Part shown: positions 58,649 to 62,834 of the stretch, one piece after another
Layout of the letters: each line of letters opens with the position of its first letter
Position numbering within the stretch: position 1 is the stretch's first letter
Notes under the pieces: model-generated
Told to the model about the DNA's origin: nothing
Database searches by the model: none
The model's input: only the letters and a program-made list of their open reading frames with translations
Position numbers and translations under genes: made by a program
Origin: Nitrospira sp.
GTDB taxonomy: Bacteria; Nitrospirota; Nitrospiria; Nitrospirales; Nitrospiraceae
DNA: 64,000 nucleotides
Direction of reading: 5' to 3'
Assembly: GCA_016873435.1 (NCBI GenBank)
Contig: VGXF01000007.1
Location: 1 to 64,000 of the forward strand

Positions 58649-59545
58649 TCAGCGGGGGGAGGACAAAGGTGCGGACGCAGCGCAGCGGAAGCCGACGGTT
58701 GCGGCGCGCTGATCTGGCGGCGCGCCGCTGCGCGTGGCCGCGCGTAGCATCATCGGCTTGCTTTTCCAGGAGCCGCCACGTACGCCCCGGTAGCGGCCGT
58801 CGCGCGGGCCGGCCGGATTTCGATTCGGCGTGATGGCATAGTAGTCGAACAGGAACCAGTCCTGCACCCACTCGGCCACGTTACCGGCCATGTGGCGTGC
58901 CCCGTAGGGGCTGGCGCCCGTCTCGCCGCTGCCGACGGGCTGCACGAGCGGAATTTCATGCACATGATACTGGCCAAACACCGCCAGCCTGTCTGCCGGT
59001 GCCTGCGTGCCCCAGGGAAACAGGTTCGCGGACTCGCCGCGTGCGGCCTTTTCCCATTCGGCTTCGGTCGGCAGCCGTTTACCGATGGATCGGCAGAAGT
59101 TGTCTGCGTCGGCCCAGGTGACGTAGAGGGCGGGCCAGCGGGCCAGGCTCTCGTCCGTTGCTGCATGCACCGTGATCATGTGCCAGATGAGTTTCCGCAA
59201 TTCGTCTGGTGTCGGCCGCTGTTGTTTGCTGAGATGCGCGAGATATTCGCCGAGGCTGACTTCGTCGCGATCGATGGCATAGGCGTCGAGCCAAACTTTA
59301 TGCTGCGGTAATTCCGTGTCGTCGTATTGGGTGTGCAATCCATAGGGATCGTCGTCCACGCGAGTCGACCCCATCAGAAACCAGCCGGCGGCAATGGGAA
59401 GGGCGGGCGAAGGCATCCCAAGATTTGCAATGCCGGCCAAGCGGGCGGACAGGTCTTTCGCTGCCGGCGGAGACGATTCGGCCGCTGCGGGCAGTGCGCA
59501 GACCACAACAAGCGCACCGGTGAGCAGCATCCATGCAGCACGCAT
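58649..59545 (-). CDS. SUMF1/FGE-domain secreted protein
   Basis: A 298-residue protein with a signal peptide (AAWMLLTGALVVVCALPAAA) and a formylglycine-generating-enzyme-like domain: FLMGSTRVDDDPYG, HKVWLDAYAIDRDEVSL, KRLPTEAEWEKAARG, GNVAEWVQDWFLFDYY, RGVRGGSWKS, VGFRCA. The FGE cysteine pair is not seen, so enzyme activity is doubtful. It is similar in layout to the protein at 19106-19972. It is divergent from the secreted unknown at 59601, 55 bases apart. Confidence 0.85.
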   Translation of the reverse strand: MRAAWMLLTGALVVVCALPAAAESSPPAAKDLSARLAGIANLGMPSPALPIAAGWFLMGSTRVDDDPYGLHTQYDDTELPQHKVWLDAYAIDRDEVSLGEYLAHLSKQQRPTPDELRKLIWHMITVHAATDESLARWPALYVTWADADNFCRSIGKRLPTEAEWEKAARGESANLFPWGTQAPADRLAVFGQYHVHEIPLVQPVGSGETGASPYGARHMAGNVAEWVQDWFLFDYYAITPNRNPAGPRDGRYRGVRGGSWKSKPMMLRAATRSGAPPDQRAATVGFRCAASAPLSSPR

Positions 59546-59600: not shown

Positions 59601-60257
59601 ATGCAATGCGTCTCACGCACCGTGCTCGTGCTGTCCATATTGTTGTCGATGGTGACGTCGGGTGTTGCGGCGACGGAACCGTCCGCCCCAAAGCCCGGCC
59701 CGGTGCCCGAGGAAGACTACCCCCTCTACGACCTTGTCGTGCGGACCAAGTACCTCCGGTCTGACACGGCGCTCGTGCTTGTGGAGCGGATGACGATGAC
59801 GCGGCGTGAAAAAGACGAGCGCGAATATCTGCGCCGGGAATTTTTCGACGAGCAGGGCATCTTCGATGGCCGGCTGCCGGCCGAGCTTCTAGCTAGTTTC
59901 TTTGCCGGACTGAAAACGCAGGCCCGCTTGGAGAGCCGGTTCACGTTCGGCACGCAGGTGAAATTTTTCCATGACGGCGTGCCGGAGGAGGCGGAAGTCT
60001 CGCTGGCGCCGATTCTGGTGTCGTTCAAGCGTCCGGCCCAGCGTGCGCCGCATGCGATCGGCGTGCTGCGCTTTTCCCGCATCGGCTACACCGCGAAGGA
60101 GGACCAGGCGCTGCTCCTCGTGGAAGAAGACCGGCCGGACGGCAGCGGCGGCGGTCTGCTTATCTGGCTGCGGCGGCAGGGGCTAGTCTGGAGGATCGCT
60201 GAGACCGAGGTGCTCTGGACAGCGCGGACGACTGAACCCGGATTGCAAGGCCCCTAG
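59601..60257 (+). CDS. Secreted protein of unknown function
   Basis: A 218-residue protein with a signal peptide (VLSILLSMVTSGVAA). The mature part is beta-rich (LYDLVVRTKYLRSDTALVLVER; ESRFTFGTQVKFFHDG; SFKRP) and ends in an antiparallel strand pair (LVWRIAETEVLW). No catalytic motif or known family is recognised. It lies 36 bases before the 20-codon ORF and HExxH gene on the same strand, so they may form an operon. Confidence 0.6.
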   Translation: MQCVSRTVLVLSILLSMVTSGVAATEPSAPKPGPVPEEDYPLYDLVVRTKYLRSDTALVLVERMTMTRREKDEREYLRREFFDEQGIFDGRLPAELLASFFAGLKTQARLESRFTFGTQVKFFHDGVPEEAEVSLAPILVSFKRPAQRAPHAIGVLRFSRIGYTAKEDQALLLVEEDRPDGSGGGLLIWLRRQGLVWRIAETEVLWTARTTEPGLQGP

Positions 60258-60292
60258 CATTGATCGGGGTCCCGCGCTAGCATGGAGGCGCA

Positions 60293-60355
60293 ATGATCAT
60301 TTTCAAGATGCCCAGTCTCGTTGGGCGCAGGGCTGAAAGAGCAGGGTGGCGCTGA
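60293..60355 (+). CDS. Possible 20-codon ORF overlapping the HExxH gene
   Basis: ATG at 60293 has GGAGG four bases upstream and runs to TGA at 60353-60355, encoding MIIFKMPSLVGRRAERAGWR. Its last ten bases overlap the GTG start of the HExxH gene in another frame. It could be a leader peptide that couples translation, a very small modified peptide, or chance. Confidence 0.35.
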   Translation: MIIFKMPSLVGRRAERAGWR

Positions 60356-61797
60356 AACGCTGTAGCCTCTTCGACGATACTGCGCTCGCGGCACTTCAGG
60401 GTGAGTTCCGCTCGTCCATGCGCCGGCTGCTGTCCGATCTGTGCAGGGAACTCTCCGGGCGGTATCGCCGCCAGTCGCGCGCCCTACGCCTGACACCGGG
60501 TCATTTTCGTGAAGTTAGCCGTGCGCTCAGGCCTGAAGACTTCTCGAACTGGAAAGTCGTCGGCTGGGTCGAAGAGCTGAACGACCTCATCTATTTTCTA
60601 GACGTCCAGTGGCAATTGAGTAAAGAGCGGTTTCCCGCAGATTTTGCCGTATCCTTCCTCGTTGCCTGCGATAAGCAGTTCTACGAGCACACCTACCTCG
60701 ACGAACTATTTCCAAACAGAAAGCCAGAGCCTGCGAAATTATCTGCACGCCTTGGCGCACTCTGTGCGCGGCTGGCGCGCAGCGTGAAGCGGGAGGCCCT
60801 GTTTCTCATCCCAGGTCTGTTGCCAAACCAGGCGGAGAGGGTTCGGGTGACGGAGCCTAATTTCGAGCGGGCCGAGCCGGCCGGTTTCGTAGCGGTCGGG
60901 CTGGACGGCGCGGGCGTCGAACTACGGCACGGTCGTGTCGCGCCCCCGCACTGGATCAGGCAGGGGGGACCGGATGGGCCAGGCAGGCTGACCCTTGGCC
61001 CTACCATTATATATAAGCGGGACAAGACGCCTGCCCGTATCAGCCCAACACGGGGCGATATCGCGGCTCGGATTCAGCGAGCCCTGGGCACGATCGAGTT
61101 GGCCTGGCCTAAGGGGGCACAGGGGCTGGCCCATCTCACCAATCGAATCGTACCGTTAAAAGCAAAAGGCGTTGTCAGCTTTAGCTATCGTCACAGGCCA
61201 GGCCTATCTTTTATTAATGTGTTTGATCGAGACGATCTTGATCTGATTGATGATCTGATTCACGAAAACAGCCACCATCATTTGAATCTCTTGTTGCGCG
61301 AAGCTGTGCTCTATCGCATGGACTGGAATCAGGAGATTTTTTATTCCCCTTGGCGCCGCAGCTTCCGCCCGCTGCGCGGTATCCTCCATGCGACGTTCAC
61401 CTTCACGATGGGCGCGATTCTCTTTGAGCGGCTGTCGTCGTTCGAGGCGAGAGGCGAGGGGCGATCGGTTCGCGGAACGATAAGGCTCACGCCCAAGCAG
61501 ATTCTCCGCGCGCGCTTTCGCTGTCTCGAAGAAGTCGCCTCCGTCCGCTACTCGCTCAAGGATCTGGCCTATGCCCGGACGCTCGGCTGGCTCACTTCAG
61601 CCGGATGGGGCGTAGTCTGTTCGCTGAAACGGGAGATTGATAAGGTCGCACGCCGCATTGCACCGTTCGAGCGGGCCGTCCTGCGATCAAAATATGGGCG
61701 AGAACTCTCACGCCATCGGAAGGCGCTCGCAACCGCACGGGCAAGGAACTCGATCAAAGACTATTCGCGCTACGGCTCCACCGTGACATCGACATAG
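60346..61797 (+). CDS. HExxH-motif putative peptide-modifying enzyme
   Basis: A 483-residue protein with HENSH (HExxH) at residues 306-310 in DDLIHENSHHHLNLLLREAV, followed by FYSPWRRSFRPLRGILHATF, the arrangement of the HEXXH-motif family (TIGR04267-type). Some members are 2-oxoglutarate-dependent peptide beta-hydroxylases acting on ribosomal peptides. The first 300 residues are helical and family-variable. GTG start; an in-frame TGA at 60334 rules out an earlier one. The substrate is unknown. The last 28 bases overlap the convergent gene's end, and a heptad repeat lies inside (61444-61464). Confidence 0.75.
   Translation: MALKRCSLFDDTALAALQGEFRSSMRRLLSDLCRELSGRYRRQSRALRLTPGHFREVSRALRPEDFSNWKVVGWVEELNDLIYFLDVQWQLSKERFPADFAVSFLVACDKQFYEHTYLDELFPNRKPEPAKLSARLGALCARLARSVKREALFLIPGLLPNQAERVRVTEPNFERAEPAGFVAVGLDGAGVELRHGRVAPPHWIRQGGPDGPGRLTLGPTIIYKRDKTPARISPTRGDIAARIQRALGTIELAWPKGAQGLAHLTNRIVPLKAKGVVSFSYRHRPGLSFINVFDRDDLDLIDDLIHENSHHHLNLLLREAVLYRMDWNQEIFYSPWRRSFRPLRGILHATFTFTMGAILFERLSSFEARGEGRSVRGTIRLTPKQILRARFRCLEEVASVRYSLKDLAYARTLGWLTSAGWGVVCSLKREIDKVARRIAPFERAVLRSKYGRELSRHRKALATARARNSIKDYSRYGSTVTST
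61444..61464. repeat. Three tandem heptamers inside the HExxH gene
   Basis: GAGGCGA, GAGGCGA and GGGGCGA follow without gaps within the reading frame, encoding residues around EARGEGR. It is the same class of sequence as the CopA linker repeat. Confidence 0.6.
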
Positions 61798-62834
61798 GCC
61801 GGCATCGAATCTGCCCCTTTCCCATCCGTCACCCTCAGCCGAAACCGATACAATCGTTTTTCGGATACCTGCGGTGCTTGGAACGTCGCTTCCGGGCCGT
61901 TCGCATCGAGCAGTGAGACCTTACTCCCACGCACCTGGCTCCACTGATAGAACAGCGCCTCGCCTTCCAAGTCGTGGCTTTTTAAGCCTGAGAGTTTGAC
62001 CTTGGCCCCAGCTTTCACGGTCTTGTTCGGTCCCGCGTTGGCAACGGGCAGCTCATTCGGTTCGGTGTTCACTTCAACGAAGACATCCAACGTTGCCTGC
62101 TTACCGCGGTTTGTCACCGTGACAACAGTCTTGCCGTTGCCGACAATCTGAAGCAAGCCGTCGGCGAGAATCCTGATGACGGTCTCATCGGAAGATTGAT
62201 AGGTCGTTCCAGACGCAGGCGCGCTGATCTTCCGTTCAATGCCGTCTGTGAAGGAGCCAATGACCGGCAGCTCGAACGTCTTGCCCAGTGAGTCGATCTG
62301 CCCATAGGCGGCGGCCTGTCCGGCGCGGCCGAGTTTGAGCGGCTTATCGGTTTCAAAATCGATCGCGGTCAATTCTGAACCCGGGTCCACGCTCACGAGG
62401 ATCTCATCGAAGACGGTCCGCGTGCCGAGTCGCCCGCGGGAAATTTCCGCGACGGCCAGTAGGCGCATGGGGCCAATGGCGTCTTTCGGTACGGTCAGCG
62501 CGCCGCCAAAGGGAGGATTTTGATGCGAGTCGGCGACGAGCGCAGCAACTTTGACAATGGCGCCAGCGGAAGTGTTGCCCTTCTGCTCGACGAGCGTTTC
62601 GTCCAATTCGCCGTACCAATAATAGCTGACCTGGACGCCGCCAGTGTCCTGTCCCAAATCCACGTTCGCGGTCATGGACTTGCCGGCCGTGACCGTGGCA
62701 CCGTCCCTCGGTTCGACAATCTTAAAGGCAAGGGCCGTGTGTGTGTAGGCGAGGCCGATGGCGAGGGCAAGCAATCCTGACATGAAGCTCCAGTCCAAAC
62801 GCTTCATGCAATACCGTTCGCGCGTCACGGTCAC
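61770..62834 (-). CDS. Secreted PKD/Ig-like domain protein
   Basis: A 354-residue protein with a signal peptide (GLLALAIGLAYTHTALA). Beta-sandwich regions follow: an Ig-like part (FKIVEPRDGATVTAGKSM), a Big2-like segment (SSDETVIRILADGLLQIVGNGKTVVTV) and a C-terminal PKD-type domain (VANAGPNKTVKAGAKVKLSG...GKGADSMPAYVDV). It is probably a surface or periplasmic adhesion or scaffold protein. The GTG start overlaps the stop of the upstream permease gene (GTGA); the inner ATG at 62807 is an alternative. Its end overlaps the HExxH gene convergently. Confidence 0.8.
   Translation of the reverse strand: MTVTRERYCMKRLDWSFMSGLLALAIGLAYTHTALAFKIVEPRDGATVTAGKSMTANVDLGQDTGGVQVSYYWYGELDETLVEQKGNTSAGAIVKVAALVADSHQNPPFGGALTVPKDAIGPMRLLAVAEISRGRLGTRTVFDEILVSVDPGSELTAIDFETDKPLKLGRAGQAAAYGQIDSLGKTFELPVIGSFTDGIERKISAPASGTTYQSSDETVIRILADGLLQIVGNGKTVVTVTNRGKQATLDVFVEVNTEPNELPVANAGPNKTVKAGAKVKLSGLKSHDLEGEALFYQWSQVRGSKVSLLDANGPEATFQAPQVSEKRLYRFRLRVTDGKGADSMPAYVDVTVEP

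Follow-up and report, generated by a model that had tools for sequence, protein, structure and literature searches.

The locus examined here raises the question of what an enzyme of the HExxH peptide beta-hydroxylase family does when its gene has no precursor gene beside it. The window that we analyzed is a stretch of 64,000 nucleotides from a genome of 1.72 Mb (33 contigs, 98.5% complete). A first-pass annotation had described three objects in it, a secreted-type gene, a 20-codon ORF, and an HExxH gene, and all three are present in the sequence. The secreted protein gene (59601 to 60257, forward strand) encodes 218 aa with a signal-peptide-like start. The HExxH gene (60346 to 61797, forward strand) has a GTG start and encodes 483 aa. 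Between them lies the 20-codon ORF (60293 to 60355, forward strand; ATG start, MIIFKMPSLVGRRAERAGWR), which, just as described, has its own GGAGG (60284 to 60288, forward strand), four bases before the ATG, and overlaps with its stop the first 10 bases of the HExxH gene. Downstream, a gene on the reverse strand for a PKD-domain protein (61770 to 62834; PF22352 and PF18911) converges on the HExxH gene and overlaps its end by 28 bases. At the other side of the locus, a gene for an FGE-sulfatase domain protein with a signal-like start (58649 to 59545, reverse strand) is divergent from the secreted protein gene and occupies the same position in the loci of five close relatives.

Taking the evidence below together, we consider it probable that the HExxH gene encodes a solitary core hydroxylase of the Fe(II)/2-oxoglutarate type that likely acts in trans, that the 20-codon ORF is a scar, and that the secreted protein gene is a neighbor rather than a dedicated partner.

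Family, motifs, and predicted fold of the HExxH protein

The HExxH protein scored 69.1 bits against TIGR04267, above the curated cut-off of 40, in a match covering residues 244 to 371. Its best PDB relative by sequence in a phmmer search was ChlH (8s5f; E = 1e-9; residues 275 to 356 of the HExxH protein). A structure model built with 40 sequences as input had a pLDDT of 86.0 and a pTM of 0.85, and this predicted model matched the crystal structure of the ChlB HExxH domain (8s5f) with a Z score of 25.6 and a deviation of 3.3 A over 300 residues; a Foldseek search was concordant (E = 1e-9). Because the 8s5f match covers model residues 1 to 435, the N-terminal part of the protein also has a counterpart in 8s5f. 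The second fold match was SjiH-Ni (22ob, Z 21.1), and the next row reached only 9.5. We set aside the Foldseek and VIA rows ranked under the two HExxH entries as common helical arrangements.

The HExxH motif reads HENSH in this protein (61261 to 61275, forward strand; residues 306 to 310), and H306, E307, and H310 are invariant in an alignment of 40 sequences (alignment A1, consisting of the window protein and proteins from 39 of the 80 HExxH loci). In the same alignment, S334, P335, W336, R337, R341, P342, G345, and H348 are invariant; the SPWR...RP..G.LH region that they define (61345 to 61389, forward strand; residues 334 to 348) is common to ChlH. Approximately 40 residues (about 195 to 235) that most other family members possess are absent from the proteins of the window and of the loci L002, L003, and L044. 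Comparison of the HExxH gene with that of L002 gave a dN of 0.17 to 0.19 and a dS of 1.06 to 1.40 by two methods, values that show purifying selection. Overall, the TIGR04267 score, the motifs, and the predicted fold show that the window protein is a complete member of the aKG-HExxH-type peptide beta-hydroxylase family, and the family assignment made by the first-pass annotation stands.

Distribution, descent, and gene context of the HExxH gene

Those relatives of the HExxH gene that carry a name come nearly all from Nitrospira or from Nitrospirae/Nitrospiraceae bins. In a first survey, 33 of the 37 genomes of the window's bacterial family had an HExxH match (G028 and G031 as fragments only), and the four family genomes without a match were 70 to 85% complete. 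In a survey of 345 genomes of the phylum, TIGR04267 matches were detected in 102 genomes; 96 of these were among the 98 genomes of the window's family, and 93 of the 96 had a single match. The phylum survey gave no HExxH match in G215 and G227, which belong to the window's family and are >90% complete; these could be real losses, and if so they would show what accompanies the enzyme.

Pairwise distances between HExxH proteins correlated with those of the NFACT neighbor (r = 0.91, 60 loci) and of the APC permease (r = 0.81, 48 loci), and in neither case was the correlation as high in any of 999 permutations; only HExxH proteins of >500 aa entered this comparison, which leaves out the window, L002, L003, and L044. 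Given that NFACT and the permease are linked neighbors, the correlations show shared descent of the region. These data show the HExxH gene to be a near-universal, almost always single-copy, vertically inherited core gene of the family. A second, partial copy of the HExxH 3' end (approximately residues 400 to 467) lies downstream of the gene in three cases (L002:7750-8046, L006:6021-6443, and G012:C46:224-433). In L002, a gene for a DUF4143/AAA_14 ATPase separates the HExxH gene from the partial copy, possibly as an insertion into the gene end.

The genes that recur around the HExxH gene are NFACT, the BFN and MBL genes, the PKD gene, and an amino acid permease; no other maturase or peptide transporter lies alongside. 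With 60 bits required for a neighbor to be counted, a divergent NFACT gene was upstream in 52 of the 61 loci whose upstream flank is complete, a BFN gene was upstream in 5 of those 61 (9 of 80 over all loci), and a relative of the PKD gene was found in 57 of 80. No neighbor gene is kept throughout the HExxH loci. In the window itself, the HExxH gene is flanked by the putative scar upstream and the opposite-strand PKD gene downstream, which bears out the earlier observation that neither a conventional precursor nor a conventional transporter adjoins it. A gene of a recognized family with neither a precursor nor a peptide transporter adjacent implies a minimal or different system, as had also been proposed.

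Surveys of small ORFs upstream and downstream of the HExxH gene found none present in all loci. One of them, a small zinc-ribbon ORF (MKCxRC) that reads in the same direction as the HExxH gene, was upstream in 41 of the 80 loci (L009, L010, and 39 more). For some family members, this ORF may be a partner of the enzyme. As a dedicated partner it was ruled out, given that the zinc-ribbon family is multi-copy across the order, with members in 59 of 61 genomes, often in many copies and sometimes in genomes that have no HExxH gene. Downstream of the HExxH gene in seven loci (L006:5823-5942, L009, L016, L019, L033, L036, and L064), we detected orphan peptides of 39 to 47 residues that end near YGPMLKRL. 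They match the tails of AbrB-like antitoxin ORFs located downstream of the HExxH gene in other loci, where an ORF of approximately 131 aa follows that we take to be Doc-like. We rejected these peptides as HExxH precursors on the basis of their likeness to antitoxin tails and of their distribution, with matches in 6 of 61 genomes and the window genome not among them.

The phylum does contain HExxH genes in a biosynthetic setting. Outside the window's family, TIGR04267 was matched above its cut-off in four genomes of the phylum survey (G052, G302, G326, and G314). The G052 locus (L150, C28) encodes a YhhB radical SAM protein (495 bits), a YhhA precursor (53.6 bits, cut-off 36), a YhhC 2OG oxygenase, and the HExxH protein, and in G314 (L151, C24) YhhB and YhhC genes accompany the HExxH gene; the ORFs in the G302 and G326 regions resemble those of the typed Yhh clusters by eye only. 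PtuA- and PtuB-like genes (retron/Septu) stand beside the G052 cluster with scores below their cut-offs, and a pairing of an HExxH cluster with PtuA/PtuB-like genes recurs by eye in all four fetched loci, two of which (L150 and L151) are Yhh-type cyclophane RiPP clusters. The Yhh-type HExxH genes in L150 and L151 share with the window gene the phylum and a TIGR04267 score above the cut-off, but they are rare and come with YhhB and YhhC, and in L150 with a YhhA precursor, whereas the window gene has none of these. The Yhh-type clusters illustrate a RiPP setting in this phylum, and the window gene lies outside any RiPP cluster, without any part of that setting.

These clusters bear on the foremost alternative to a solitary core enzyme, namely, that the HExxH enzyme serves a RiPP pathway in trans, modifying a true precursor encoded elsewhere in the genome, with the other maturases also elsewhere. 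The existence of Yhh-type clusters with an HExxH gene in the phylum is consistent with such a pathway, as is the activity of the characterized family members, which, in the available portions of their descriptions, modify RiPP precursors (PMC12636437, PMC13060819). However, near-universal, single-copy, vertical inheritance is unlike the sporadic occurrence of a biosynthetic cluster, and neither the zinc-ribbon ORF nor the antitoxin-like peptide has the constancy that a precursor should have. We therefore regard a RiPP pathway in trans as unlikely, and we prefer the reading of the gene as a solitary core form.

The 20-codon ORF as a deletion scar

The first-pass annotation had treated the 20-codon ORF as encoding a candidate peptide. 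By itself the ORF is not above chance expectation: counting ORFs of 15 to 60 codons with an ATG 4 to 10 bases after a GGAGG on both strands of the window, we found 10, and 50 first-order Markov simulations gave a mean of 8.0 (range 3 to 16). In sister genera, whole genes occupy the position of the ORF, one for a metallo-beta-lactamase (MBL)-fold protein (Pfam Lactamase_B) and one for a secreted protein with a bifunctional-nuclease (BFN) domain (BFN_dom). In L044, for example, the secreted protein gene is followed by the MBL-fold gene, then by the BFN gene, and finally by the HExxH gene, and in both L002 and L044 the BFN gene extends 20 bases into the HExxH gene.

The ORF in the window appears to join remnants of these genes. 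At 60297 to 60327 (forward strand) lies a remnant of the BFN (DUF151-like) gene, with the codons FKMPSLVGR against FKAPILVGR. When this stretch was compared with the BFN codons HFKAPILVGR, 0 of 1,000 shuffles were as good for L002 and 3 of 1,000 for L044; no significant match to the remnant was found in L003, L004, or L005. A frame shift, which we read as a small further loss, separates this remnant from a second one in another frame (60333 to 60365, forward strand), in which the BFN 3' end, LKEQGGAETL-stop, sits at its usual spot over the HExxH start; L002 has MKEQGGAETL-stop at the same place. This likeness is partly shared because the HExxH gene itself begins there. The 5' part of the scar aligns to sequence preceding the MBL start, with 2 of 1,000 shuffles as good for L044 and 32 of 1,000 for L003, and the spacing behind the secreted protein gene is 35 bases in the window and 39 in L044. 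The GGAGG thus probably once served as ribosome site for the MBL-fold gene that was deleted.

Both the MBL-fold gene and the BFN gene are absent from the window locus, and elsewhere in the genome we found only remote relatives (BFN, 38% and 35%; MBL, 32%). When 37 other genomes were searched for each gene, matches at threshold, remote ones among them, were obtained in 36 for BFN and in 35 for MBL. Because remnants of the MBL start region and of the BFN end are joined and both genes are gone from the genome, we interpret the 20-codon ORF as a frame read by chance across a deletion scar from which the MBL-fold and secreted BFN-domain genes were removed, a deletion read from one genome of the window's genus and with a 5' junction that rests on short alignments. 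As a precursor, the ORF would then be a false lead and not worth pursuing.

A scar may nevertheless acquire a use, and the 20-codon ORF could act as a leader whose translation delivers ribosomes to the HExxH gene with its weak GTG start, in place of the overlap with the BFN gene that would provide coupling in L002 and L044. This proposal is compatible with our preferred reading of the enzyme, and the scar ORF does retain a ribosome site, while its stop overlaps the HExxH start. We nonetheless consider a leader role rather doubtful, given that such ORFs are expected by chance and that no examined relative has the scar.

Proposed activity and its meaning

Returning to the enzyme as a solitary core hydroxylase, its activity, metal, substrate, and action in trans would follow what is known of its family. 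The substrate would be a cytosolic protein or peptide that is resident in the cell and encoded elsewhere, and the helical N-terminal part would present it to a zincin-like metal site. Fe(II) would be held at the HExxH motif, as family knowledge suggests, and O2 and 2-oxoglutarate would be consumed to hydroxylate the side-chain beta carbon of the presented substrate. Known members of the family hydroxylate His, Asp, Phe, Gln, and Pro residues (PMC13060819).

Among known systems, the HExxH domain of ChlB/ChlH (8s5f) shares with the window enzyme the predicted fold over 300 residues and both the HExxH and the SPWR...RP..G.LH motifs; however, ChlB is a radical SAM fusion that, in the available text, acts on a RiPP precursor (PMC12636437), whereas the window enzyme has neither a radical SAM partner nor a precursor and is encoded by a lineage-wide core gene. 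PflC and PosC, from Pseudomonas RiPP clusters, belong to the same family and are stand-alone polypeptides like the window enzyme, but, unlike the window gene, their genes lie next to those for a precursor, for a GNAT, and for an MNIO-nitroreductase (PMC12636437). The ribosomal protein hydroxylase YcfD/RoxA offers an analogy only: it is described as a 2OG enzyme that stands alone and has a resident protein as its substrate, the role that we propose here. Its target is ribosomal, and no such target is implied for the window enzyme. YcfD/RoxA has a JmjC fold and is unrelated in sequence to the HExxH enzymes.

HExxH is also the classical zincin motif, and the protein could instead be a zinc metallopeptidase that hydrolyzes a peptide bond at this site. 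PflC lends some substance to the idea, given that, according to the available text, this member of the same family also cleaves, hydrolyzing a truncated substrate (PMC12636437). The top sequence and fold matches of the window protein are nevertheless HExxH oxygenase entries rather than peptidases, and no Pfam family, peptidase families included, was matched at E <= 1, leaving a peptidase very unlikely.

The secreted protein encoded upstream had itself been suggested as the target of the HExxH enzyme. It matched no Pfam family at E <= 1, and its AlphaFold model was poor (pLDDT 46.5, 5 sequences). The family of this protein occurs in 24 of 61 genomes, every one within the window's own family. 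In the window its gene ends 88 bases upstream of the HExxH gene on the same strand, and among the 19 genomes of G000 to G023 that carry the family, the distance to the HExxH gene is <3 kb in 6 but 40 to 140 kb in 8. The secreted protein gene stays instead by the MBL gene, at <300 bp in 14 of the 18 genomes having both (counted from coordinates). The two families do not always occur together: 10 of the 37 family genomes (G001, G003, G022, G024, G025, G026, G032, G034, G035, and G036) have the HExxH gene without the secreted-protein family. Because it stays by the MBL gene, is often 40 to 140 kb away, and is missing from these 10 genomes, the secreted protein is probably a member of the neighborhood beside the MBL gene and not a dedicated HExxH partner, and its modification by the HExxH enzyme before export is highly improbable. 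The 20-codon frame is not conserved, and the HExxH gene is found in varied contexts without the secreted-protein family; these are the observations that the first-pass annotation had itself named as refuting, and the linkage of the three objects that it suggested is accordingly not upheld.

The enzyme family is already known. We found no earlier description of a solitary, core, lineage-wide HExxH form in the literature searched, which left most subscription journals outside its scope, and within those limits this form is apparently undescribed. The HExxH gene has been retained in a 1.72-Mb genome although adjoining genes were deleted. We tentatively suggest, as a possibility that falls somewhat short of even, that in Nitrospira and its kin a RiPP-tailoring family was domesticated to serve as a core protein hydroxylase, which could modify a central protein of nitrite oxidizers in an oxygen-dependent manner. 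If the suggestion is true, HExxH chemistry, described on precursors inside biosynthetic clusters, would also have a part in core physiology, and this in the lineage to which the Nitrospira nitrite oxidizers belong.
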